Assembly: GCA_947478865.1 (NCBI GenBank)
Contig: CANJXF010000004.1
Span: 1-64,000, forward strand
Direction of reading: 5' to 3'
Length of the DNA: 64,000 bases
Source of the DNA: Verrucomicrobiales bacterium
GTDB lineage: Bacteria; Verrucomicrobiota; Verrucomicrobiia; Limisphaerales; CANJXF01
The translations under genes were made by a program, and so were the position numbers. The notes below the pieces were generated by a model. The model was not told where the DNA came from, ran no database searches, and saw only the letters and a program-made list of their open reading frames with translations. Positions within the stretch are counted from its first letter, which is position 1. Each line of letters begins with the position of its first letter. This document shows, in pieces, positions 34,088 to 61,402 of this stretch.

Positions 34088-37000
34088 TTAGTCTTCGGAG
34101 AAGAGATATTCCAAATCGATCTGTGAGAGATTTCGGGCAAACCCTTCTTCGCCGAGCACATCCGCGATAGTCTGCGCCTTGCGTTGTTGCAGGTCCCAAA
34201 TTTTTTCTTCCACAGTGCCAGGAGCGATCAGGCGGTAGGCATTCACGGTGCGCGTCTGTCCGATACGATGCGACCGATCGATCGCCTGCGCTTCAACTGC
34301 GGGATTCCACCACGGATCGTAGAGAACCACGTAGCTGGCTTTGGTCAGGTTCAATCCAGTTCCCGCAGCGCGAAGGCTGAGCAAAAAGACCGATCCCTTT
34401 GGGTCGTCCTGGAAAGCATTTACAACGGCCTGCCGGTCCTTAGTTTCGCCAGTCAAAATATGCGTGGAAATGTGACGTTGCTGACATTCTTTTTCCAACA
34501 AGCGGAGCATTTGGACAAACTGGCTGAACACCAAGACTTTTTGGTTATCGGCGAGGAGCGGCTCCAACAACTCGAAGAGCGTATCCGTTTTTCCAGAAGC
34601 GGAATCACTGCCGACCAACTGAGGATGGCAGCAGATTTGCCGAAGCCGAGTAAGCGCAGCGAGCACGTGAATGGCACTTTTGCCCAAACCTTTCTCGGAA
34701 ACATTTTGCATCACCTGCTCGCGACTGCGCCGCAGTTCGGCCAGATAAAGTTTGCGCTGCGCCTCGCCCAAATCGCAATCGCGCCTCTCTTCGATCCGGT
34801 CCGGCAAATCACGCGCCACTTGCTTCTTCAAACGACGCAGCATCAGCGGCCGCAGCTTCGAGGAGAGACGGCGCCGGGCGATGCGCTGTTCGCTTTCCGC
34901 ATTTTCGCCGCGCGGTTCGTATTTCTCTGAAAAATTTTCCTTGGTGCCCAGGAAGTTGGGTTGAATGAAATCGGTGATACTCCACAGATCGAGCAGGCGA
35001 TTTTCGAGCGGCGTGCCAGTCAGCGCGAGCCGTTGTTCGGCGCGCAACTGCTTCACGGATTGGGTGATCTGCGCCTCGGGATTCTTGATGAATTGGGCTT
35101 CATCAAGAACGGCGGCGCGGAATGAAAATTTTTGCAACGCCTCCAAATCGCGCCGCAACAAGGCGTAATTCGTCACGATCAAATCGTGTTGTGGAATTTG
35201 GTGGCGCAGATTGTGCCGGGCCGCGCCACTTTCCAGCACGAGAACTTTCAAATGCGGCGTGAATCGCTCGGATTCACGACGCCAATTGTGCAACACCGAA
35301 GCCGGGCAAATCACCAAAGCAGGCTTGTGGTCTTTGGGATGTTGCGAGTGCAACCAAGAAAGCCAGGCCAATGTCTGCAAGGTTTTGCCGAGCCCCATGT
35401 CGTCCGCTAGGATTCCGCCGAGTTTGTGGCGCGTAAGGTGGCAGAGAAAATCAAAGCCGTCTTTTTGATAGGGACGCAATTCTGCCTGCGTGTTCGGCGG
35501 CAGCGGGATAGAAGGAATGCCGGCGAATTCCGCGAGGCTTTCGCGCAGCGCGCGCGCCTGGGGAGAATCAACAAAACGTTGCAAACCCGCTTCGTCCAAA
35601 TGCGCGGCGTGCTCCAGTCCGAGGCGCTGCGGAATCGCGCTGAGCCCATCCAGACCCAAATCGGCAAACGCTTCGTGCGCGTTTTGCACGGCGGCAGAAT
35701 CCAGTTCCAGCCAGCCTGCGTCGGGCAAATTAACAAACCGGCCCGTGGCGGTGGCGAGGCGTTGCAAATCAGCCGGCGTGAGTTTGAGCCCTTCAATCTC
35801 CCACTCGGTGGAAACGGAGAACCAATCGATGCCGCTGCCTTTGACCACCAGGTGCGGCCTGATTTGTCGGGGTGCTAGAAACAAACGGTGAAACGCCGTG
35901 TCACCCAGATAATCGGCATCAGCCGGGCGATCCTGCCAAGCGCTGGCGAGTTTACCAAGGAACCCTTCGTTGGCATCGCCCAGCCATAACCCGTGTTCCG
36001 GGGTGAACCAATCCAATCGGCCGAGCCATTGCGCGGCGGGATCCAAGCGCGGGTCATCCAGAATTTCAGGTTTGGCGTTGGCACGAACCATGGATCCGTC
36101 CATCTGCCATTCATGACCATTCCAGTTCCAAAGCGTTTGGTCGCGCTCGCTGATCGCCTGCAAGCGAAGCCGTACCGTTTCATTGGCCAATTCAAACGTG
36201 AAGCGCGGCTTGGCGGCGTGAGCGGTGCAAAGCTGTTCCCAATCGACTTCTTTGCTCGGCTTGGTCTTGCGCAACTTGGTCAGAAGGCGGTGACTGAGTT
36301 TACTAACCGGAACGGATTTCTTCCTGGCCCACGCATCCAAGAGATCGGTAGGCGGACCGTTACGGAGCAAATAAAACGTATCTTCGATCAGGACCAACGA
36401 AGGTCGTCCGGTGAAAAACTTCGCCTGATTCAACGGACGCAGTTCGCCGGCGGGCAATTGCAGATTGTGCGTGAAGGAAAGTTCGTTCTCGATGTTCTCG
36501 AGATCCGGCTTCAATTCGGCCAAATGCCCGTGGAATTTGGCGAAGTTCTGGTTTTCCTGAAATTGGAGGCGCGAATTCTCACCCCAGCGCACGAGCCATT
36601 GCAAGAGTTCCAGCCCCGTCAAAGTAAGCGTGTCCCACAGCCCTTCCGGATCCGCGTGCGTTTCGGCCAGCCACTGAATAAATTCCCAATCGGCTGGAGA
36701 AAAAAGTTCCTGCTCATGAGCCGAACGCGTGGTCAGCTCGAGGATTTCGGAAAGCGTCTTGGGCTTTTCACCGGTGCGGGGGCGGAAGAGATAAAACTTC
36801 ACCGCCAAGGCAAAGAGCGTTGAATCCTCACCCGCCGGCTGTAACGCGCAAGCGACGCGCAAAAGAGCGCGGGGGGAATCCAAGTGAACGGGCGACGGCG
36901 GGAAGAGCCAGTGCTCCAGTTTCTGAACCAGCTTTTGGTCCTCCTCGGCTTGCTCGACTTCGGCGAAGCGATCCAGATTGGCGTGCGTGGTCAACTCCGT

Positions 37001-37354
37001 TGGCAGCGGACGATTGGCGCGCAGAAACAAAATGGCGGTCTCTTCGAGGCGCTTCTTGCCTTTGACCGACATGAGGCGAGGCCACCATTCCTGCCCGGCG
37101 AAATCTTTGCGAGAGAGAGAAAGTTTTTCGAAATAATCTTCCAGCAATAGCCAGGCGCGCTGGGAATCGGTGCAGTCGGAAAAAATGCGAAGCAGCTCCG
37201 TTCGCTCAGCAACGGCGGCTTTGGAATCGGATAATTCACGACGCAAATCCGCGAGGGCACCGTAGGTTTTACTCAAAACCGTGTGATGCGCGTCATACTT
37301 TGTGGTATTCCCCGATCGAGTCCCCGAAGCGTTTTTGCGTGTGGTCTTGGCCAT
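34088..37354 (-). CDS. SWI2/SNF2-family DNA translocase / helicase
   Basis: A 1088-residue protein. The N-terminal half is a bacterial SNF2-associated region, with an ARK-rich start and the HYDAHHTVLSKTYG-like segment. The ATPase core begins near residue 630 with LRPYQKDGFDFLCHL, Walker A DDMGLGKT near 652, and DEAQ in VLDEAQFIKNPEA. Motif III is LTGTPLENRL, and the C-terminal helicase domain has VFSQFVQML, LSLRAAGTGLNLT and DRSHRIGQTRTV. Such proteins translocate on duplex DNA and remodel protein-DNA complexes; bacterial members include RapA-like and phage-defence-associated enzymes. No methylase, nuclease or other defence gene flanks it, so a defence role is not supported. Confidence 0.94.
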   Translation of the reverse strand: MAKTTRKNASGTRSGNTTKYDAHHTVLSKTYGALADLRRELSDSKAAVAERTELLRIFSDCTDSQRAWLLLEDYFEKLSLSRKDFAGQEWWPRLMSVKGKKRLEETAILFLRANRPLPTELTTHANLDRFAEVEQAEEDQKLVQKLEHWLFPPSPVHLDSPRALLRVACALQPAGEDSTLFALAVKFYLFRPRTGEKPKTLSEILELTTRSAHEQELFSPADWEFIQWLAETHADPEGLWDTLTLTGLELLQWLVRWGENSRLQFQENQNFAKFHGHLAELKPDLENIENELSFTHNLQLPAGELRPLNQAKFFTGRPSLVLIEDTFYLLRNGPPTDLLDAWARKKSVPVSKLSHRLLTKLRKTKPSKEVDWEQLCTAHAAKPRFTFELANETVRLRLQAISERDQTLWNWNGHEWQMDGSMVRANAKPEILDDPRLDPAAQWLGRLDWFTPEHGLWLGDANEGFLGKLASAWQDRPADADYLGDTAFHRLFLAPRQIRPHLVVKGSGIDWFSVSTEWEIEGLKLTPADLQRLATATGRFVNLPDAGWLELDSAAVQNAHEAFADLGLDGLSAIPQRLGLEHAAHLDEAGLQRFVDSPQARALRESLAEFAGIPSIPLPPNTQAELRPYQKDGFDFLCHLTRHKLGGILADDMGLGKTLQTLAWLSWLHSQHPKDHKPALVICPASVLHNWRRESERFTPHLKVLVLESGAARHNLRHQIPQHDLIVTNYALLRRDLEALQKFSFRAAVLDEAQFIKNPEAQITQSVKQLRAEQRLALTGTPLENRLLDLWSITDFIQPNFLGTKENFSEKYEPRGENAESEQRIARRRLSSKLRPLMLRRLKKQVARDLPDRIEERRDCDLGEAQRKLYLAELRRSREQVMQNVSEKGLGKSAIHVLAALTRLRQICCHPQLVGSDSASGKTDTLFELLEPLLADNQKVLVFSQFVQMLRLLEKECQQRHISTHILTGETKDRQAVVNAFQDDPKGSVFLLSLRAAGTGLNLTKASYVVLYDPWWNPAVEAQAIDRSHRIGQTRTVNAYRLIAPGTVEEKIWDLQQRKAQTIADVLGEEGFARNLSQIDLEYLFSED

Positions 37355-37480: not shown

Positions 37481-38632
37481 CTAAACCTTGCCAATCCACT
37501 TGCGATCGTCCCAAACCGCTTTGAGCGACGTCAAATTGCGGCCGTCAAAAACGTTTTTCGCAGCGGCGATTACTTCACCTTTTTTCAAATTGTTGTAGGC
37601 ATCGCTGGCACTGATCGCCACGAACTGAAGCACGCTCGGATCGCGGTAGCAGTCGATCATGCATTTGGTGCAGCCGTCGCGAATAATTTTGCTCTGATCA
37701 AATTCGTAAATGTTGCACATGGGCGATTCCCAAGCATGGCAACGGTAGAGATTCAAATTCCAATCGAGATAAAAATATTTGTGACCGCCGAGGCAGCCGA
37801 ACTTTTCCGGTTCCTTGCGCAGATGCCGCTGCATTTCGGAGAGCGATTCGGTCGGGTTCACCACCGGATAGCCGCTGTGCCGCTTCATCTCTTTGATTTT
37901 TTCAAAAACCTGGATGAGCTCCTCTGTTTTGTAATTCACCAGGCTGGAGTCACTAAAACTCAAATAACTCGAAGCCAGCGACGTCAGCGGATAACTAAAT
38001 GTGCAACTCGTAAAGCCCAGCGTCTGCAAAAAGTCCGGGAGCTTTTCGTAATCATCGATGAGCTTGCTCGCAGTAACGCTCGCGGTGGTTTGAATTCCGA
38101 GCTCCTTGAAAACTTCGTTGGCGCGTTTGATTTTTCGGCAAACATCGGGAAGCCCGCGGTTTTTCTCGTGTTTCGCCACGTCATGCGAATCGATCGACAT
38201 GATCACACTGCTCATGCCATCGCTCGCCAACTCGCGCATGTTTTGCTCGGTCCAAAGCGAACCGTTGGTGCAAACCATCGCGTTGATGCCGGATTCCGTC
38301 GCATACCGAATCATCGCGCGAAGTTCCTTGTGAACGAGCGGTTCGCCACCGACAAAAAGCAAGTAGCCGATGTGATTCTTTACGGCGATATCAATGACAT
38401 CTCTAGCCTCCTTCAACGTGACACTGCGACGTTGTTTCGGATCAAATTTATCCACAGCAAAGCCGCAGAAATCGCATTTTGCATTGCACAGATTGGTGAT
38501 CGCAAACTGCAAGTAACCTGGCCCGCCATGTTCGAGAACTTCGCCGAAAAGTTTGAAAACGCTTTTCTTCGGCCTGACCACCGGACGCGAAAAGTCCACC
38601 GCTGCCTGAGAATTATCGTTGAGAGCAACCAC
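37481..38632 (-). CDS. Radical SAM protein with SPASM-like C-terminus, third enzyme of the Hpn cassette
   Basis: A 383-residue radical SAM enzyme. The cluster motif C-x3-C-x2-C is C49, C53, C56 (CNAKCDFC), followed by the GGEPL SAM-binding motif. The C-terminal region carries extra cysteines (FGCLGGHKYFY, YRCHAWESPMC, and the group GCTKCMIDCY) that probably bind one or two auxiliary iron-sulfur clusters as in SPASM proteins. Its closest architecture is again HpnH-like, but I cannot name its reaction. It begins 13 bp downstream of hpnJ on the same strand, so co-expression with hpnH and hpnJ is likely. A role in modifying the same hopanoid or other polyprenoid substrate is inference. Confidence 0.85.
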   Translation of the reverse strand: MVALNDNSQAAVDFSRPVVRPKKSVFKLFGEVLEHGGPGYLQFAITNLCNAKCDFCGFAVDKFDPKQRRSVTLKEARDVIDIAVKNHIGYLLFVGGEPLVHKELRAMIRYATESGINAMVCTNGSLWTEQNMRELASDGMSSVIMSIDSHDVAKHEKNRGLPDVCRKIKRANEVFKELGIQTTASVTASKLIDDYEKLPDFLQTLGFTSCTFSYPLTSLASSYLSFSDSSLVNYKTEELIQVFEKIKEMKRHSGYPVVNPTESLSEMQRHLRKEPEKFGCLGGHKYFYLDWNLNLYRCHAWESPMCNIYEFDQSKIIRDGCTKCMIDCYRDPSVLQFVAISASDAYNNLKKGEVIAAAKNVFDGRNLTSLKAVWDDRKWIGKV

Positions 38633-38645
38633 GATGTTCAGTGGT

Positions 38646-40091
38646 TTACGCGGACGCTTTGGCTGAAGCCAAATCGGTTCTGCGTTGCGCCATGGATTTG
38701 AAGAATTCGTAGCCTTCGCGCAAACGGCGAACGCACACGTCTTTATCTTCCAGCATGGTTTTGATGATACGCAGAATCGGCTTCGGACGCAGATAGTAGC
38801 GGCGATAAAACATTTCTACCGACTCGAAGATTTCATCTTTGCTCAATCCAGGATATTCCAATGCGCTCTGCTGGAATCCGTCACCGTGAACGATGTCCGT
38901 TTTGTCTTTCTTGGCGAACCATCCATTTTGCCGGGCCATATCGAAAAGCTCCGTGCCGGGATACGGCGCCGCAAGCGAAACCTGAATGCTGAACACATCC
39001 AAATCCATCGCGTAACGAATCGTCTGCTCGATGGTTTCTTTCGTTTCAATCGGCAGACCGAGAATAAACGTTCCGTGAATAATCACGCCAAGCTCTTTGC
39101 AGGCCTTGGTGAAATTCTTGGCTTCGTCGATGTTGATTCCCTTTTTGATGCGATCCAAAATTTGTTGGTTGCCGGATTCATAGCCGACGAGGAACAAACG
39201 CAAGCCGCAATCTTTCATCAGCTTGATCGTTTCGTAATTCACGTTCGCACGGCTGTTGCAGCTCCAGGTCATGCCAAGCGGCTTCAATTTTTGTGCGATT
39301 TCACGGGCGCGCGGAAGGTTCGCGGTGAAGGTGTCGTCATCGAAGAAAAATTCCTGCACTTGTGGAAAAAGTTTTTTGGCATGCGCCATTTCCGCTGCAA
39401 CATTTTCCGGCGAGCGAACGCGATATTTGTGTCCTCCAATGGTCTGCGGCCACAAACAAAAGCTGCATTGCGCAGGGCAGCCACGACCCGTGTAGAGCGA
39501 AAGATACGGATCTTTAAGGTAACCAATCGAATATTTTTCAATCTGCAGATCGCGTTTATAAACATCACTCACCCATGGCAAAACATCCATGTCATGAATC
39601 AATGCGCGTTCTTTGTTGTGAATGATTTTCCCGTCTTTCCAAAACGAGAGGCCATCCACTTCAGCGAGCGGCCTGCCTTCCGCCACTTCTTTGCAGGTGA
39701 AATCAAATTCTTTGCGACCCACCCAATCAATCGACTGTGACGCCTTTAATGTTTCCGTGGGCAAAACCGCCGCGTGCGCACCGACGAACCCGATGGTCGT
39801 GCCGGGCTTCTGGGACTTGATCGCCTCGGCTACTTTGCAATCATTTTTCAGCGAAGGAGTCGAGGTATTGATGATGACATGATCATATTGCTTCGCTTCG
39901 GCGAGACAGGTTTTCACGTCGATGTCATGAGGAGGGCAATCCATCAACTTGCTGTTGGGAACGAGCGCGGCGGGTTGAGCAAGCCAGGTCGGATACCAAA
40001 ACGAACGAATCTCGCGCTTAGCCTGATACCGCGCACCGGCACCGCCATCGAAACCGTCAAAACTGGGCGGGCTTAGAAAAAGTGTTTTCAT
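38646..40091 (-). CDS. hpnJ: HpnJ-family B12-binding radical SAM enzyme
   Basis: A 481-residue protein whose opening (MKTLFLSPPSFDGFDGGAGA then RYQAKREIRSFWYPTWL) is the hallmark of HpnJ. The N-terminal 150 residues are a cobalamin-binding-type domain. The radical SAM motif is C205, C209, C212 (CPAQCSFC), followed by WPQTIGGHKYR, FFFDDDTFT and VGYESGNQQIL, all typical of HpnJ. In other bacteria HpnJ is needed to turn glucosaminyl bacteriohopanetetrol into the cyclitol ether form. It stands between the hpnH homologue (53 bp upstream) and a third radical SAM gene. No squalene-hopene cyclase, HpnI or HpnK gene is present in the window. Confidence 0.88.
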   Translation of the reverse strand: MKTLFLSPPSFDGFDGGAGARYQAKREIRSFWYPTWLAQPAALVPNSKLMDCPPHDIDVKTCLAEAKQYDHVIINTSTPSLKNDCKVAEAIKSQKPGTTIGFVGAHAAVLPTETLKASQSIDWVGRKEFDFTCKEVAEGRPLAEVDGLSFWKDGKIIHNKERALIHDMDVLPWVSDVYKRDLQIEKYSIGYLKDPYLSLYTGRGCPAQCSFCLWPQTIGGHKYRVRSPENVAAEMAHAKKLFPQVQEFFFDDDTFTANLPRAREIAQKLKPLGMTWSCNSRANVNYETIKLMKDCGLRLFLVGYESGNQQILDRIKKGINIDEAKNFTKACKELGVIIHGTFILGLPIETKETIEQTIRYAMDLDVFSIQVSLAAPYPGTELFDMARQNGWFAKKDKTDIVHGDGFQQSALEYPGLSKDEIFESVEMFYRRYYLRPKPILRIIKTMLEDKDVCVRRLREGYEFFKSMAQRRTDLASAKASA

Positions 40092-40144
40092 TTTTAATTT
40101 GTTAGAAACTGATTAAGACATTCCGAAGAAAAACCTGACCGACG

Positions 40145-41554
40145 CTAAACGTCCTTCTTGGCGATTTTCGAGAGCAACTCATCACGCTGAGTTGTATCGC
40201 CACTGCCGCAACCGCCGGAGGTTTCATGCGTGTGACTCTCCTCTTTCCGGGAGAAAACCGATTGCGCGCCATTCATCGCTGCGCGAGGAGAGTTGATGGC
40301 AGCCTTGGCTTCGGCTAAGTGACCTTTGCCAATGGAAGTGCCATTGAACGCGAAAACTTCGCGACCCTTGAGATACGGCTTTGGTTTCGCGCCAAAATTG
40401 TAACGAAAGTTTTTCCAGTTATCGCCACGCTGATAATTCGTACCGAGCGCGCCGCTTGGATCGTATCCGCAGTGGACCATGCAGTTCTCACATCGGGAGT
40501 CGCGGGCCACGCCGTCCACGACACCATATTTTTCCCAATCTACCTTCTCCAACATTTCAGCGTATTTGGGATAATGACCATCGGTCATCAAATAGCAGGG
40601 CGCTTTCCAGCCTTTGACATTGCGAGTGGGAATGGCCCAAGCGGTGCAGGTCAGCTCGCGTTTCCCAGCGAGAAACTCCTGATAAACCGGCGTGCCGAAA
40701 ATCGTGAAGCGTTCGCCCCATTCCTGAATTTTCGCGAACTTTTGCCGCGTCATTTTGCGCGTCAAAAAGAAATCTTCCGGCTGTTTGTTCAGGCGCGAAA
40801 CCATGTCCTTCTTGGCCGCATCGTATTCGTAACCAGGTGAGATCGTGTGCCCATCCACTTCCATGGAAGAGAAAAACTCAAACATCTGCTCGATCTCTTT
40901 GACGTCGGTCTCTTTGTAAACCGTCGTGTTTGTCGCAACTTGATATCCGAGGATCTTCGCCATCTTGATCGCTTCAACGCATTCCTTGAAAACCCCTTCC
41001 CGTTCCACAATCAAGTCGTGGGTGTATTCGAGTCCGTCCACATGAACGTTCCAATACATCCACTTCGTGGGCCCGATCACGGGACGTCCGTCGCTCTTGC
41101 CCTTGCGAATGCCTTCCGCGTCTTTTTCTGAAATCAATTTTTCTGCGAGCAGCTTGGAAAGCTTTGCTTCCAATTCCGGCGAGTAAATGCTCGCCATGTA
41201 ATCACGCATTTTTTTCCGCATGAACATTCCATTTGTGCAGACGTAAACGATGCGGCCCTGCTCCAAAATGCCCGCGATCAACTCCTCGATCTTCGGATAG
41301 ATTAACGGCTCTCCGCCGCAAATTGAAACCATCGGCGCATCGCATTCATCAGCGGAACCGAGACAATCTTCCAGGGACATCATGTCTTTGAGGCTGGTGG
41401 AGTATTCGCGAATGCGTCCGCAGCCGGTGCAGGTCAAATTGCAGGTGTGCAGCGGTTCAAGCTGTAGAACCAGCGCAAACTTCGGCGTTTTGCGCAACTT
41501 GTGTTTGATAATATGGCGGGCAATTTTTGCCGTCAGCCCCAATGGAAATCGCAT
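40145..41554 (-). CDS. hpnH: HpnH-family radical SAM protein with insertion and C-terminal extension
   Basis: A 469-residue HpnH homologue. HpnH couples a 5'-deoxyadenosyl radical to diploptene to make adenosylhopane. The signature motif is C38, C42, C45 in LEPLHTCNLTCTGCG, with the CGGEPL motif, the HVDGLEYTHD segment and the DUF3463-type tail (GWKAPCYLM, CENCMVHCGYD). Two differences from canonical HpnH are visible. About 40 extra residues lie between KKMRDYM and WNVHVDG (about 122-162), and an extra tail of about 90 residues contains HTHETSGGCGSGD. The extension makes its product less certain. It starts only 3 bp after the small lipoprotein gene and leads the three-enzyme run. Confidence 0.82.
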   Translation of the reverse strand: MRFPLGLTAKIARHIIKHKLRKTPKFALVLQLEPLHTCNLTCTGCGRIREYSTSLKDMMSLEDCLGSADECDAPMVSICGGEPLIYPKIEELIAGILEQGRIVYVCTNGMFMRKKMRDYMASIYSPELEAKLSKLLAEKLISEKDAEGIRKGKSDGRPVIGPTKWMYWNVHVDGLEYTHDLIVEREGVFKECVEAIKMAKILGYQVATNTTVYKETDVKEIEQMFEFFSSMEVDGHTISPGYEYDAAKKDMVSRLNKQPEDFFLTRKMTRQKFAKIQEWGERFTIFGTPVYQEFLAGKRELTCTAWAIPTRNVKGWKAPCYLMTDGHYPKYAEMLEKVDWEKYGVVDGVARDSRCENCMVHCGYDPSGALGTNYQRGDNWKNFRYNFGAKPKPYLKGREVFAFNGTSIGKGHLAEAKAAINSPRAAMNGAQSVFSRKEESHTHETSGGCGSGDTTQRDELLSKIAKKDV

Positions 41555-41557
41555 AAT

Positions 41558-41803
41558 TTAGTTGGATTGAGCCAAATGCTTGACTGGCTCAGACTGTGAA
41601 CTATTCGAGGAAACCTTTTCGGAACCGGCCGGCTGTGCAACCGGTTTATTTTGAACCAAGCCCGGCAAAAAGAAGCTCAAGGGCGAAACTCCTTGTGAAG
41701 CACTAATGCCACTGCATCCTGCACCCAACAAAACTATGGCTGGGAGAATTGCAAGCTGGCAAAAAATCCGGTTCAATCTCACATCCGTAAGTATAAATTC
41801 CAT
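41558..41803 (-). CDS. Small lipoprotein heading the radical SAM cassette
   Basis: Start at 41803 gives a lipoprotein leader, MEFILTDVRLNRIFCQLAIL, with lipobox LGAGC and about 50 mature residues rich in Ser, Gln, Pro and Val. An ATG at 41809 and a longer frame to 41902 also exist. No domain is recognised. It sits 3 bp before the hpnH homologue and on the same strand, so it is probably translated from the same message. It may localise to the outer membrane, but no function can be read from the sequence. Confidence 0.6.
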   Translation of the reverse strand: MEFILTDVRLNRIFCQLAILPAIVLLGAGCSGISASQGVSPLSFFLPGLVQNKPVAQPAGSEKVSSNSSQSEPVKHLAQSN

Positions 41804-41807
41804 CAAC

Positions 41808-42662
41808 ATGATAGCAATATTTAATTGGCCGTTGCCTGGAGATTTTCGCCGGTTTTCTTCACTCAGGGAATGGCTGATGGGATTGATTTTAGCTGGAAGC
41901 ATCTGCCTGTTTTTTTCGATGAGCGCAAGCGCCGCGGAATCCGAACTTTCCCAACAGAACGCGGCGGCGGCGGTTTTTGCGGCGCGGGCGGAAAAAGCCC
42001 TTCAAGCTGCCCGAGTCCGGCTGAAGTCCGAGTCGACCAATTCGGAAGCTGCCTGGCAATTTGGCCGAGCGTGCTTCGACATGGCCGAATTCGCGGAAAA
42101 TAACAAGCAGCGCGAGGATTATGCGGCGGAAGGAATTGATGTCTGCCGCCAGTTAAGCCTACGCCAGCCGCAATTGGTTGCCAGCCATTACTACTTTGCG
42201 ATGAACCTCGGCCAGCTTGCACGGACCAAAACCCTCGGCGCTTTGAAATTAGTGAGCGAAATGGAATTTGCCTTTCAACGCGCGCATGATCTCGATGAAC
42301 GCTTTGATTACGCGGGACCGGATCGAAATCTCGGATTGCTCTACCTCGAAGCGCCGGGCTGGCCGACGAGTATTGGCAACCGCAGTAAGGCTCGTCACCA
42401 TCTCCAACGCGCCGTGCTGCTCAGTCCAAGTTTTCCCGAAAACCGCCTCAATTTGATCGAAGCCTACCTTAAGTTCGGAGACAAAACCGCAGCACAAGGC
42501 GAATTCAAAGAGCTAAAAGAGTTTTGGCCAGCCGCAAAAAAACAATTCTCGGGAGAGCAATGGGAGAAAAGTTGGGGCGATTGGGAAAAAGGCCGGCAGA
42601 AGATTGAGTTGAAATTATCCGAGTCCTCCAAGGCATTAACCTCTCCCGGCGGCCAGAAGTAA
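41808..42662 (+). CDS. Exported TPR-like helical protein
   Basis: A protein of about 285 residues with a leader LMGLILAGSICLFFSMSASA preceded by RRFSSLR. The frame allows starts at 41706, 41808 and 41877. I give 41808 because it keeps the basic leader end, while 41877 has AGGGA at a good distance and would leave 73 bp to the divergent lipoprotein gene. The body is paired helices like tetratricopeptide repeats (ARAEKALQAARVRLKSESTN, NLIEAYLKFGDKTAAQGEFK). It is probably periplasmic. Partners are unknown; it is divergent from the radical SAM cassette and followed by a small lipoprotein gene. Confidence 0.75.
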   Translation: MIAIFNWPLPGDFRRFSSLREWLMGLILAGSICLFFSMSASAAESELSQQNAAAAVFAARAEKALQAARVRLKSESTNSEAAWQFGRACFDMAEFAENNKQREDYAAEGIDVCRQLSLRQPQLVASHYYFAMNLGQLARTKTLGALKLVSEMEFAFQRAHDLDERFDYAGPDRNLGLLYLEAPGWPTSIGNRSKARHHLQRAVLLSPSFPENRLNLIEAYLKFGDKTAAQGEFKELKEFWPAAKKQFSGEQWEKSWGDWEKGRQKIELKLSESSKALTSPGGQK

Positions 42663-56097: not shown

Positions 56098-57996
56098 CTA
56101 AATCGAAATCATTGAGTCGGAGTCCCGCACGTCCAGGAATTCTATGACCCGCGCCACGGATTCAGCGACGGTCATTTTATCCGTGCGCAATTCGACTTCC
56201 GGATTTTCGGGCGACTCGTAGGGAGCTGAGATTCCGGTAAATTCTTTGATCTGATTTGCGCGCGCTTTTGCGTAAAGACCTTTGGTATCGCGCTGCTCGC
56301 AAATTTCCAACGGCGCGTTGACGAACACTTCAACGAACTGGCCTGCAGGGGTGATCTTTCGCACCAATTCGCGATCGGATCGATACGGAGAAATAAATGC
56401 GGTGATGACAATATTTCCGGCGTCGGCCATGAGCTTGGCGACTTCCCCGACGCGTCGAATATTTTCTTTCCGATCTTCCGGAGAAAAGCCCAGGTCAGAG
56501 CAAAGTCCGTGGCGCATATTGTCGCCATCCAGGACGTAAACATGTTTGCCGAGATTAAATAGCTCTCGCTCCAGTTCGGTGGAAATCGTCGATTTACCGG
56601 AGCCAGAAAGCCCCGTCAGCCAAATCACACAACCGCTATGGCCGTTGCGCAATGCGCGCTGCGCCGAAGTGACCTTGCCGTGACTCCAATAAATATTTTC
56701 GCTCTTGTGCGCCGAATCGGAAGAACGGCGCGGGTAATTGTCGGCAGCTATAATTCCGCCGCCAGAAACTTCAAAGCCATCAACGATGACGAATCGGCCG
56801 GTCGCGACGATTTCCGAATGCGCATCAAACGCAACCGGGCGTTTTGTTTTCAACGTCAGCTCGGCGACCTCATGCCTTCCGACGCGCAGTTCTTTTCCTT
56901 CGCGTTGCACCGTATCAAGCGTCGATGCGTCGATGATTTTTTGAATGTCATCGATCTCGCAATCCACTTCCTGGGTGGCGAGTTTGAGTTTGTAACTGCG
57001 ACCTTTGCGAAACGGCTCGCGCCCCAGCCAAAAAAGACGCGCTTTGAATCGTGTCAGTTCGTAAGGCGGTTCCGCTTCCAGCGCGGCAATCGCTCCGCGT
57101 TCAACGAAAATCTGCTCGGTCAGTGTGACGCCGATGGACTCACCGGCACTGGCAAAATCACTTTTCGGCGCGCTCCAACGCTCGATTGATTTCACCGTGC
57201 TTGATTTATTCGTCGGAGCAAAAATGAGTTTGTCACCAACTTTGATCGAGCCGGATTCGATGCGTCCGGCAAGAATTCGCCGCTCGTCGAACCGGTAAAC
57301 ATCCTGAATCGGAAAGCGCAGCGGCTGATTGAGCGGAAGATCGGTGACGTTGAATTGATCCAACGTCGCCAGAACCGTCGGACCATTCCACCACGGCATA
57401 TTATTGCTGAGCGAGGCGATGTTGTCGCCGTGCTTAGCCGCAATTGGGATAAAAATTTTTGGTGTGACGCCGAGGCTTTGCAGAAACGCGCGATATTCTT
57501 TTTCGATCGAGTCGAACCGCTCCTGGGAATAACCCGCGAGATCCATCTTGTTCACGAGCACGGCGATTTGCCGGATGCCGAGCAGATTCAGTAGATATCC
57601 GTGGCGCCGCGATTGTTCCTGCACGCCCTCGCTCGCATCAATCAAGAGCAGCGCCGCCTCGGCATTGGCTGCACCGGTGATCATGTTTTTGAGAAATTCT
57701 TTATGACCCGGCGCATCGATAATCACGTACTGCCGCTTGGGTGTTTGAAACCAGATTTGCGCGGTATCGATGGTGATGTTTTGATCGCGCTCGGCCTGCA
57801 AACCATCCATGAGATTCGCCCATTCAAACGGCACGCCACGTCGCTCGGCAATTTTCTGAAGTTGCTCGAGTTTACCTTCCGGCAACGAGCCGGTGTCGTT
57901 GAAAAGGCGGCCGACAAAAGTGGATTTGCCATGATCGACGTGGCCGACGATGACGATTTTAAGTTGTTCGCTTGGTGCAGATGAACCGTTGTTCAT
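56098..57996 (-). CDS. cysNC: Sulfate adenylyltransferase subunit 1 / APS kinase fusion
   Basis: A 632-residue two-domain enzyme. The N-terminal GTPase (CysN) has G1 GHVDHGKS at 18-25, DAPGHKEF, and NKMD, followed by EF-Tu-like beta domains. The C-terminal APS kinase (CysC) has the P-loop GLSGSGKST starting at residue 462, with DGDNMRHGL, and [10 protein letters not shown]. With CysD it forms APS from sulfate and ATP, GTP-driven, then phosphorylates APS to PAPS. It is the last gene of the cysI-cysH-cysD-cysNC run, 82 bp after cysD. Confidence 0.97.
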
Positions 57997-58078
57997 AAAA
58001 ATAATCTAAACGTGGAGAGGAAAAGCTGCGGAGATGGAGAAAACATGACCTGGTTTCCTTGCCATCTCCGCGGTCAAG

Positions 58079-58891
58079 TCACATGTATCCGTCTCGGCGG
58101 AGCTTCTCAAAAGCATCTTCGCTTTCTTTATCTTGCGCGCGACCGGCGCGCTCTGAGGTTTTTGTGGTGCGAAGTTCTTCGATGATTTCGCGAATGGTGC
58201 TGGCCTTGGACTTCACCGGAAAAGTGCAGGGATAACATCCGAGACTTCGATAGCGTTCGCCTTTTTCGTTGGCGTAATAGAGCGGACTGACTGTGATGTT
58301 TTCGCGTTCGATATACTCCCAAATATTCAACTCCGTCCAGTGCAACAGAGGATGAATGCGAATGTGCGTTCCCTTGTCGTAATCGGTTTTGAATTGGTCC
58401 CAAAGTTCCGGAGGTTGGTCCTCGACGTTCCACTCCATGTTTTTATCGCGGGGGGAAAAATAGCGTTCTTTGGCGCGCGTTGGATCTTCATCGCGACGCA
58501 CGCCGACGATTACGCCGCTGTAATTATGCTTATCAAGCACAGCCTTGAGCCCGTCCTTTTTCAAAGTGCCGCAGCATTCGACGCGAGTGGCTTTTCCGTT
58601 CGGGAAAGTCCGCCCTTCGGCGAGAACCGCTTCGTTTTTTCCGACGACCAATTCGAGATTCCATTCCTTCACGAGTTTGTCGCGGTACTCAATCATCGAA
58701 GGAATTTTATAAGTCGTGTCGACGTGGACGAGCGGAAATGGCACGTGACCGAAAAAGGCTTTGCGCGCCAGCCAGAGCAGCACGGTGGAATCTTTGCCGA
58801 TGCTCCAAAGCATGGCGAGGTTCTCGAATTTCGTGAACGCCTCGCGCATGATGTAGATGCTCTGGTTTTCTAGTTTTGAAAGGTAATCCAT
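58079..58891 (-). CDS. cysD: Sulfate adenylyltransferase subunit 2
   Basis: A 270-residue PAPS-reductase/ATP-sulfurylase superfamily enzyme. The PP-loop is [12 protein letters not shown], followed by [56 protein letters not shown] and [18 protein letters not shown]. It catalyses adenylyl transfer from ATP to sulfate in complex with CysN. It is 270 residues against about 300 for E. coli CysD, with a full set of motifs. It lies between cysH (35 bp) and cysNC. Confidence 0.97.
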
Positions 58892-58926
58892 AGAAATTTA
58901 ACCACGCATGGTGGCCGAAACAGAAC

Positions 58927-59709
58927 TCAGATTTGAAAATCCACTTTCTTGGACATGAACGTGTGGATGCCGCATTCCACCTTCTTGAAACCGGTCCAAC
59001 GCCCGGCGCGCTCGTCTTCGCCGCCCGCAACTTTCTGCGTGCATGGAAAACATCCGATCGAGCGAAATCCTTGATCGTGAAGCGCGTTGTAAGGAATTTT
59101 GTAATCGGCGATGTATTTCCAGATGGCTTCGCGCGACCAGTTTGCCATTGGATTTAATTTCACGATGTCGCGATCGGACGACTCATCGGCATTGTAAAGC
59201 TCGATCACGCCGACATCAGCGCGCGTTTGAGATTGTTGCCGGCGCAATCCCGTCATCCAGCAATCCAATTCCGATAATTTATTTCGCAGCGGCAAAACTT
59301 TGCGCATCGTGCAGCACAAATCGGGATTGCGCTTCCACAGCTCCGGTCCCTGTGCTTCCGCTTGTTGTTCAATCGTCAAATCGGGAACCAACGATTCGAT
59401 TTTGAAGCCGAAAAACGATTCGAGCCGATCTTTCAATACAACCGTTTCGGGAAAGAGCAGTCCGGTATCGAGAGTAAAGACCGGGAATGATAAATTATTT
59501 TGTTTAGCCAGATGCATCATCACTAGCCCAGCTCCTTGAAAACTGGTGCCAATTGCCGCCCGTGCGCCGAATCGTTCATGCGCCCACTGAAGAATTTCCT
59601 CCGTGGGCATTGCATCAAACTGCTCGTTCAATACCCGAACAACGGCAGGCGTGATGGCCGTTGTTTCCGGCAAGTTGAGGGCTAATGCGTTAGAAGCTGG
59701 AGCACTCAA
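58927..59709 (-). CDS. cysH: Iron-sulfur APS/PAPS reductase
   Basis: A CysH family reductase giving sulfite from APS or PAPS. Two conserved cysteine pairs, DLCCTM and GCFPC, mark the [4Fe-4S] type usually specific for APS, and the catalytic Cys lies in VECGIH. The substrate loop FPVFTLDTGLLFPET is present. I place the start at TTG 59709, one base after the cysI stop, because an ATG start at 59805 would overlap cysI by 95 bases and add 32 residues that look like shadow translation. The choice is uncertain. Downstream is cysD. Confidence 0.9.
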   Translation of the reverse strand: MSAPASNALALNLPETTAITPAVVRVLNEQFDAMPTEEILQWAHERFGARAAIGTSFQGAGLVMMHLAKQNNLSFPVFTLDTGLLFPETVVLKDRLESFFGFKIESLVPDLTIEQQAEAQGPELWKRNPDLCCTMRKVLPLRNKLSELDCWMTGLRRQQSQTRADVGVIELYNADESSDRDIVKLNPMANWSREAIWKYIADYKIPYNALHDQGFRSIGCFPCTQKVAGGEDERAGRWTGFKKVECGIHTFMSKKVDFQI

Positions 59710-59710
59710 G

Positions 59711-61402
59711 TTAGTTTGTAGCGGCTGGCGCCGGCGGTTGTTCCGCCCACAAAACGCGCGCGCAGAAATCGCCGAACCGTTCCGCCCCATCACGCTCTTG
59801 GACAAAACGGCTCAACAGGGGGCGCAGTTCGTTGACGATTTCCTCATTCTTCACGCCTTCCTTGTAGAGCCGGTTGAGCCGGGTGCTGGCTTCATTTCCG
59901 CCGAGGTAGATTTGATATTTGTTGGGAGCCTTGCCGACAAAACCGATTTCAGCCATGTAAGGTCGCGCACAGCCGTTAGGGCAACCGGTCATCCGAATCA
60001 CAATTTCATTTTCCATCAGGCCAACCTCATCGAGCAAGCCCTCAATGCGCCCCAAAATGTCGGGCAGGACCCGTTCGGACTCCGCCAAGGCCAAGCCGCA
60101 GGTGGGCAACGCGGGGCAAGCCATCGAGGTGCGCCGGAGCAAGCTGCCCTGGTTTTCGACGGCGACACCGTGATCAGCCAGGATTTTAGTGATCGCGTCG
60201 CGATTCGCCGGATCGATGTTGGCGAGAATTAAATTCTGCGACGGCGTGAGGCGGAGCTCCGCATGGAATTGGTCTGCGATTTTCCGCAATGCCGATTTTA
60301 ACTTGTGGGTTTCGGTGTCTTTGATGCGGCCGGTTTCGACGTAAAGACCGAGAAAATCCTTCCCGTCGAACTGCCGATGCCAGCCAAATAAATCACCTTG
60401 CTTGGTGAATTTGTGCGGGCGTGCAGCTTCAAATTTAATTCCGACGCGCTTTTCCACTTCGGCGCGGAACCATTCGACGCCACGATCTTCCAAAACGTAT
60501 TTCAGACGAGCATGTTTGCGATTGGTGCGATCACCGAAATCGCGATGAACCGTCAAAACCGCTTTTGAAACCGCTTCGATGTGTTCGGGCGTGAAAAATC
60601 CAATCACGTCGGCGATACGCGGGAAAGTTTCTGCATTTCCATGGCTCATTCCCAAACCACCGCCAGCGACTAAATTGTAGCCGTCCAAACGGTCGCCTTC
60701 GCCGATCGCGACGAAGCCGAGGCAATTTGTGAAAACATCCACGTCATTTAACGGCGGAATAGCAAACGCGACCTTGAATTTCCGGGGCAAATACGTCTTG
60801 CCATAGAGCGGATCGACAAAGTCTTTGACCTTTTCGTCTTCAAGATTGAGTTCCTGACCTTCCACCCAAATCTGATGATAGGCAGGCGTCAAAGGAAGAA
60901 GCGCAGTGGACAATTTGCGCGCGTCCTGCAAAACGCGCTCCACGAGACAACTCGTCGCCGGCGTGGAAGGCGCCATGACATTGCGATTCACGTCACCGCA
61001 AGCCGCCAAAGTTGTAATGAGCGCGTCGTTGATGGCCCGCATCGTTTTACCCAAACCAGATTTTACGATGCCGTGAAATTGGAAGCCCTGCCTCGAAGTA
61101 ATCCGCAGCGTGTTGTTTGCGTATTTCGACGCAATGTCATCGAGCGCAATATATTGCTCAGATGGAATCACACCGCCCGGAAGGCGGGTGCGGATCATGA
61201 ACATATAATGCTTGGCAACTTTGCGCTTATCGCGATCGTCCTGCTGATAAATCCCGTGAAACTTCAGGAACTGAGAATCATCTTCTGAAAATCGATCGAT
61301 TTCCGGATTGGCAAGTGTTTGCGCAAGCGTTCCCGCCAACGTCGGGTTGGCGTCTTTGATTACCTCGTTGTGGGCTAATTTGATTGTGGTTGCTGGAATC
61401 AT
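59711..61402 (-). CDS. cysI: Assimilatory sulfite reductase haemoprotein
   Basis: A 563-residue siroheme enzyme reducing sulfite to sulfide. Two ferredoxin-like domain repeats and the cluster/siroheme cysteines are visible: ACPALPTCGLALAESER and TGCPNGCARPYMAEIGFVG. The substrate-contact motif TSRQGFQFHGI is near residue 100. The length and signatures fit CysI-like or ferredoxin-dependent Sir enzymes; no flavoprotein cysJ is present in the window, so the electron donor is open. It is the first gene of the sulfate operon, divergent from the desulfurase gene. Confidence 0.95.
   Translation of the reverse strand: MIPATTIKLAHNEVIKDANPTLAGTLAQTLANPEIDRFSEDDSQFLKFHGIYQQDDRDKRKVAKHYMFMIRTRLPGGVIPSEQYIALDDIASKYANNTLRITSRQGFQFHGIVKSGLGKTMRAINDALITTLAACGDVNRNVMAPSTPATSCLVERVLQDARKLSTALLPLTPAYHQIWVEGQELNLEDEKVKDFVDPLYGKTYLPRKFKVAFAIPPLNDVDVFTNCLGFVAIGEGDRLDGYNLVAGGGLGMSHGNAETFPRIADVIGFFTPEHIEAVSKAVLTVHRDFGDRTNRKHARLKYVLEDRGVEWFRAEVEKRVGIKFEAARPHKFTKQGDLFGWHRQFDGKDFLGLYVETGRIKDTETHKLKSALRKIADQFHAELRLTPSQNLILANIDPANRDAITKILADHGVAVENQGSLLRRTSMACPALPTCGLALAESERVLPDILGRIEGLLDEVGLMENEIVIRMTGCPNGCARPYMAEIGFVGKAPNKYQIYLGGNEASTRLNRLYKEGVKNEEIVNELRPLLSRFVQERDGAERFGDFCARVLWAEQPPAPAATN

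Follow-up and report, generated by a model that had tools for sequence, protein, structure and literature searches.

R3, a radical SAM enzyme encoded beside two hopanoid genes in a verrucomicrobial genome, occurs only with HpnJ, the BHT cyclitol ether synthase, within the limits of the assemblies. We read the locus as part of a scattered BHT cyclitol ether pathway in which R3 would act on the product of HpnJ, or on the glucosamine-bearing precursor, by means of a thiol-quenched radical, and we put the probability of this reading at about 0.6. The initial annotation had proposed that the third enzyme of the locus modifies bacteriohopanepolyol or another polyprenoid. The dependence of R3 on HpnJ supports the bacteriohopanepolyol role, and the other polyprenoid is not needed.

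Genes of the locus

The window, the whole 64-kb stretch of DNA that was analyzed, belongs to contig C4 of a 4.4-Mb assembly in 114 contigs that is 97% complete (genome G000). The features of interest were as follows, with R3 naming the third radical SAM enzyme of the minus-strand run.

34088..37354, minus strand: SNF2-family helicase (PF00176, 230 bits), which follows R3 in the window
37481..38632, minus strand: R3, radical SAM enzyme of 383 aa with a GTG start and one auxiliary-cluster-like C-terminal domain; candidate cyclitol-ether tailoring enzyme
38646..40091, minus strand: HpnJ, BHT cyclitol ether synthase, 481 aa, radical SAM with an N-terminal B12-binding-like region (TIGR03471)
40145..41554, minus strand: HpnH, adenosylhopane synthase, 469 aa (TIGR03470, DUF3463)
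41558..41803, minus strand: small lipoprotein with lipobox LLGAGC and motif SGISASxGVSPLSFFLPG, directly upstream of HpnH
41706..42662, plus strand: TPR-like protein (weak TPR match), divergent from the lipoprotein-HpnH unit

The lipoprotein, HpnH, HpnJ, and R3 genes are separated by gaps of 3, 53, and 13 bp, respectively. The initial annotation had described these four packed genes with the same gaps, and all of the open reading frames were present where it had placed them. Its names for HpnH and HpnJ were correct, as both proteins passed curated NCBIfam cut-offs. HpnJ scored 759.7 bits against TIGR03471 (cut-off 577.6) and covered positions 1-471 of the 472 in the model, and HpnH scored 371.4 bits against TIGR03470 (cut-off 225). 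The Pfam matches were PF04055 and, weakly, the B12-binding PF02310 (26.3 bits, cut-off 32.1) for HpnJ, and PF11946 (DUF3463, 134 bits) and PF04055 (46 bits) for HpnH. By eye, a sulfate-assimilation-like run of CysN, CysD, CysH, and a sulfite-reductase-like gene was also seen in the window at 56098-61402 on the minus strand.

At 469 aa, HpnH is longer than the 318-position model. An insertion at about residues 119-165 splits the TIGR03470 match, and a tail of approximately 100 residues follows it; both are common across the order, and the model was matched as two stretches in other genomes too. The predicted structure of HpnH had a mean pLDDT of 68, too weak for comparison.

The lipoprotein is not a chance open reading frame. 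With a strict pattern, 17 of 25 HpnH loci (L039 and L093 are the same contig) had a cysteine-lipobox followed by GC[SG]GIxxSxSVSPxxFLLPG immediately upstream of HpnH, and several of the remaining loci had SISP variants or blast matches. In most loci of the order (L039, L040, L069, L115, L172, and others), HpnH is immediately preceded by a lipoprotein of 70-90 aa with GCSGINxSxSVSPxxFLLPG. In the window its start may be at 41803, as first annotated, or at about 41782 if judged by homologues. Because the longest frame of the TPR-like gene runs into the lipoprotein, that gene probably has its true start further downstream. Another reading, in which R3 is a peptide maturase and the lipoprotein its substrate, was rejected because the lipoprotein goes with HpnH, including where R3 is elsewhere or absent.

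Hopanoid pathway genes in the genome

The known route to BHT cyclitol ether uses the Hpn steps given here (PMC12583986), which are known in other bacteria and were assigned in this genome by family. Squalene-hopene cyclase would form diploptene, and HpnH would attach a 5'-deoxyadenosyl radical, yielding adenosylhopane, from which an HpnG-like phosphorylase would take off adenine, with the conversion to BHT coming after. HpnI would place N-acetylglucosamine onto BHT, HpnK would deacetylate it, and HpnJ would convert the glucosamine to the cyclitol ether.

The initial annotation had noted that squalene-hopene cyclase, HpnI, and HpnK were missing from the window. None of the three is within the 64-kb window, but all are in the genome on other contigs, so their absence is only a window effect. 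The cyclase is on contig C65 (691 bits, cut-off 431), HpnI on C40 (312 bits, cut-off 310), and HpnK on C88 (284 bits, cut-off 232.6). An HpnG-like gene 0.45 kb from HpnK scored 100 bits, below the cut-off of 187. None of the 58 genomes in a panel with one genome per family reached this HpnG cut-off, and the HpnG-like gene was often beside HpnK or the cyclase. The pathway genes are scattered over contigs, and the set is nearly complete; the route to BHT cyclitol ether lacks only the enzyme that converts ribosylhopane to BHT, which has been established in no bacterium (PMC12583986).

The presence of the cyclase in the genome also removes the earlier hint that its absence pointed to another polyprenoid substrate. 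Lack of any cyclase in related genomes had been named as a sign of such a substrate; the cyclase was present, fragments included, in 52 of the 58 one-per-family genomes, which argues against it.

Two further observations were made on these genes. A second, divergent terpene-cyclase-like gene with a 629-aa frame lies on contig C77 of this genome (9461-11218, L034), where its score against the hopene cyclase model was 78 bits, short of the cut-off; such a gene is also present in many related genomes, and C77 carries a radical SAM gene as well. Two genomes of the order, G013 and G052, had HpnI and HpnK with no HpnJ found and no R3. These may stop at BHT glucosamine, or HpnJ may be missing from the assemblies.

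Sequence, family, and range of R3

That the third enzyme belongs to the radical SAM proteins was upheld by general Pfam matches, which consisted of the radical SAM and 4Fe-4S models only. No curated family claimed R3, and no cut-off was reached among the NCBIfam families shown. The CxxxCxxC motif of R3 (C49/C53/C56) was invariant in 31 homologues, as were C121, C165, C280, C298, C321, C324, and C328. The seven-cysteine SPASM spacing (CX9-15GX4C, CX2CX5CX3C, C) was not found in R3, which has C-x17-C followed by C-x2-C-x3-C with five invariant cysteines.

Homologues with 60-88% identity were present in 31 further families of the order, and a 32nd family has a broken copy. Overall, 155 of the 320 genomes from the order, the Limisphaerales-type Verrucomicrobiota, carried R3. 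A sample of 387 other genomes of the phylum gave only matches to the radical SAM core, with scores up to 84 bits. A scan of 85,000 species returned 238 relatives of R3. Among the best 80 of the 238, nearly all had verrucomicrobial titles, a few were titled only 'bacterium', and one was titled Bryobacterales. The nearest named sequences among the relatives listed (88%) were from MAGs titled Pedosphaera sp. and others of Limisphaerales, by which the host's order is taken to be Limisphaerales in the Verrucomicrobiota. No full-length match was found on plasmids, and searches of viral protein families gave general radical SAM matches only. Judged by these comparisons, R3 is an undescribed radical SAM subfamily that, among the genomes searched, is so far known only from the Limisphaerales-type order; it may occur rarely in another phylum, as the range is that of the best 80 of the 238 relatives.

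Gene neighborhoods across the order

The common unit in the order was lipoprotein-HpnH-HpnJ with the divergent TPR-like gene, and the latter was beside HpnH in most HpnH loci. In the window, G016, G004, G253, and G259, R3 is linked directly to HpnH-HpnJ, and it was within a few kb of them in G133 and G014. It adjoined HpnI in G055 (61-79 bp before HpnI) and was about 5 kb from HpnI in G010. Most R3 genes had no hpn neighbor at all. The initial annotation called the four genes a 'cassette', but they are not a fixed unit: R3 joins lipoprotein-HpnH-HpnJ only in some genomes.

The most frequent neighbor of R3 was the SNF2 helicase, found within 10 kb in 15 non-identical loci. A functional R3-SNF2 pair was rejected because most R3 loci have no SNF2 nearby, and their proximity is probably passive synteny. 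In G042, an SNF2 helicase is close to HpnJ, with no R3 there. Together with the 15 loci, this suggests that the window retains an older order, HpnH-HpnJ-R3-SNF2, that was later broken between HpnJ and R3 in other genomes. An 88-residue HpnJ-like stretch was also seen 2.5 kb from R3 in G128 (contig C34, 93618-93881; L200, 8618-8881), with the full HpnJ 15 kb away; it may be what is left of an earlier HpnJ-R3 pair.

Co-occurrence of R3 with HpnJ

In the one-per-family panel, HpnJ was present in all 33 genomes with R3, in some of them as fragments at contig ends or with frame breaks, and R3 was present in none of the 18 genomes without HpnJ (p = 1e-9). Association of R3 with HpnI and HpnK was at p values of about 1e-5, compared to 0.02 for HpnH and 0.05 for the cyclase. 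Among HpnH-bearing genomes alone, R3 still tracked HpnJ (p = 3e-7). In the 320 genomes of the order, 136 had both R3 and HpnJ, 19 had R3 only, 54 had HpnJ only, and 111 had neither (p = 5e-25). Relatedness of the genomes inflates all of these p values, that for the whole order especially, and the one-per-family panel reduces this effect without removing it. Sequence distances of R3 correlated with those of HpnJ (r = 0.74, 19 genomes), as is expected for any vertically inherited pair.

The number of genomes with R3 and no HpnJ, 19, was close to the 17.6 expected from the summed stated incompleteness of the 155 R3 genomes, and these 19 were less complete (82% vs 90%). Two of them, G029 and G047, have known HpnJ fragments. 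Three R3 genomes with completeness of at least 93% (G029, G154, and G307) had no HpnJ above the threshold used, and G029 is the one with a fragment. In G025, G028, and G047, HpnJ was seen only in pieces due to frame breaks, contig ends, or assembly faults, and R3 of G047 is broken too.

R3 could instead belong to another pathway, such as cofactor, heme, or peptide maturation or cell-wall sugar metabolism, and merely share the life style or ancestry of genomes with HpnJ. In general searches it matches heme, cofactor, and peptide enzymes best, its commonest neighbor is the helicase rather than an hpn gene, and the co-occurrence would also fit a different substrate that is confined to organisms with HpnJ. 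However, R3 did not reach the cut-off of any heme, cofactor, or peptide family, and no small peptide gene was seen alongside it, the lipoprotein following HpnH. A shared life style also does not easily explain a weak link to HpnH and the cyclase alongside a strong link to HpnJ. We consider this alternative unlikely.

Even less probable, in our judgment, is that R3 is an accessory of HpnJ, serving its activation or repair or as an alternative way to the same conversion, with no product of its own. The restriction of R3 to genomes with HpnJ and the 13 bp between the two genes in the window would fit such a role. However, R3 was not detected in 54 of the 190 HpnJ genomes of the order, which exceeds what incompleteness alone gives, and for the alphaproteobacteria that have hpnI, hpnJ, and hpnK and form the cyclitol ether, no additional partner has been described (PMC12583986). 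HpnJ is common without R3 and so does not need it, which places R3 as a tailoring enzyme, like a downstream step.

Comparison of R3 with known radical SAM enzymes

R3 and HpnH, neighbors in the window, share the radical SAM core, a CTNG cysteine, and two spaced cysteines followed by CxxCMxxCxxDPS. The order of the C-terminal cysteines is alike (C280, C298, C321, C324, and C328 in R3; C303, C320, C355, C358, and C362 in HpnH). A profile alignment placed Cys121 of R3 with Cys106 of HpnH, and a cysteine was at the CTNG position in 31 of 31 R3 and 22 of 22 HpnH sequences compared to 0 of 21 other radical SAM proteins in which a TNG/SNG motif was readable. The HpnH cysteine (VCTNG), invariant in the 22 homologues, corresponds to Cys106 of the Zymomonas enzyme. 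Sato et al. in 2021 reportedly found that the HpnH cysteine reduces the radical intermediate. The importance of Cys106, which bears on adenosylhopane stereochemistry, has been cited (PMC12583986).

In contrast to HpnH, R3 had no DUF3463 match, was far below the TIGR03470 cut-off, and had a distribution that tracks HpnJ instead. The list from the HpnH search contained a single R3, from G004, at 32.5 bits vs the cut-off of 225, and TIGR03470 was not among the best 25 families for R3 of the window. We rejected R3 as a paralogue of HpnH because the profile match was limited to the radical SAM core and a tree placed the two in separate, well-supported clades. With 22 other radical SAM proteins in the tree, the R3 and HpnH clades were not joined, and their mutual place was unsure because of long branches. 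The label 'HpnH-like' in the initial annotation is therefore suitable for the architecture of R3 but not for its orthology.

HpnJ and R3 are both radical SAM enzymes of the same proposed pathway, and the range of R3 falls within that of HpnJ in the order. Unlike R3, HpnJ appears to be of the B12-binding type, and a profile comparison of the two found the cluster motif only.

BlsE is a radical SAM decarboxylase that acts on a sugar acid. This cytosylglucuronate decarboxylase (TIGR04466, PDB 7vob) was the best solved match of R3 by sequence, at 71 bits. The AlphaFold model of R3 (mean pLDDT 82.5, pTM 0.86) also matched BlsE best (VIA-align Z 23.6 over 286 residues at 3.5 A; Foldseek E 4e-14), with viperin, SkfB, and MoaA ranking behind it. 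The two differ in that identity is 18%, BlsE has ITNG in place of CTNG, and R3 scored 65 bits against TIGR04466 (cut-off 400). R3 has the overall fold with a C-terminal auxiliary-cluster domain that is found in the SPASM/twitch enzymes MoaA, PqqE, NirJ, and SkfB, although it does not have the SPASM spacing.

The motifs common to R3 and HpnH could also mean that R3, in the manner of HpnH, attaches a second deoxyadenosyl group to an unsaturated hopanoid, yielding a new nucleoside-bearing lipid, but we regard this as very improbable given that R3 depends on HpnJ rather than HpnH, that its sequence relation to HpnH is confined to the radical SAM core, and that its closest solved fold is the sugar-acting BlsE.

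Proposed role of R3

In the cyclitol ether pathway, R3 would cleave SAM at its CxxxCxxC cluster, and the resulting 5'-deoxyadenosyl radical would attack the polar head group. A hydrogen atom from Cys121 would then quench the substrate radical, giving a redox-neutral or reductive change, for example epimerization, and not an oxidation. The expected product is a modified cyclitol-ether hopanoid. The CTNG cysteine common to R3 and HpnH leads us to propose that a thiol quenches the head-group radical, and alignment to HpnH together with the published role of Cys106 points to Cys121 as the putative hydrogen donor.

A more specific claim is tentative, and we rate it somewhat short of even odds: R3 may be a further dedicated hopanoid radical SAM step, found only in the Limisphaerales-type Verrucomicrobiota, that uses a cysteine-thiol-quenched radical to produce a BHT cyclitol-ether head group of an undescribed kind. 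Cyclitol-ether hopanoids serve as biomarkers; reports include isomers whose structure is unknown and a form methylated at an unknown position (PMC12583986). R3, present in about half of the genomes of the order and only with HpnJ, provides a named candidate gene for an undescribed cyclitol-ether modification and could tie a lipid to poorly cultured verrucomicrobia. It would also be a second case for how the cysteine of HpnH steers radical quenching. If the proposed role is true, the R3 lipid would specifically mark a group from soils and lakes that is mostly uncultured.
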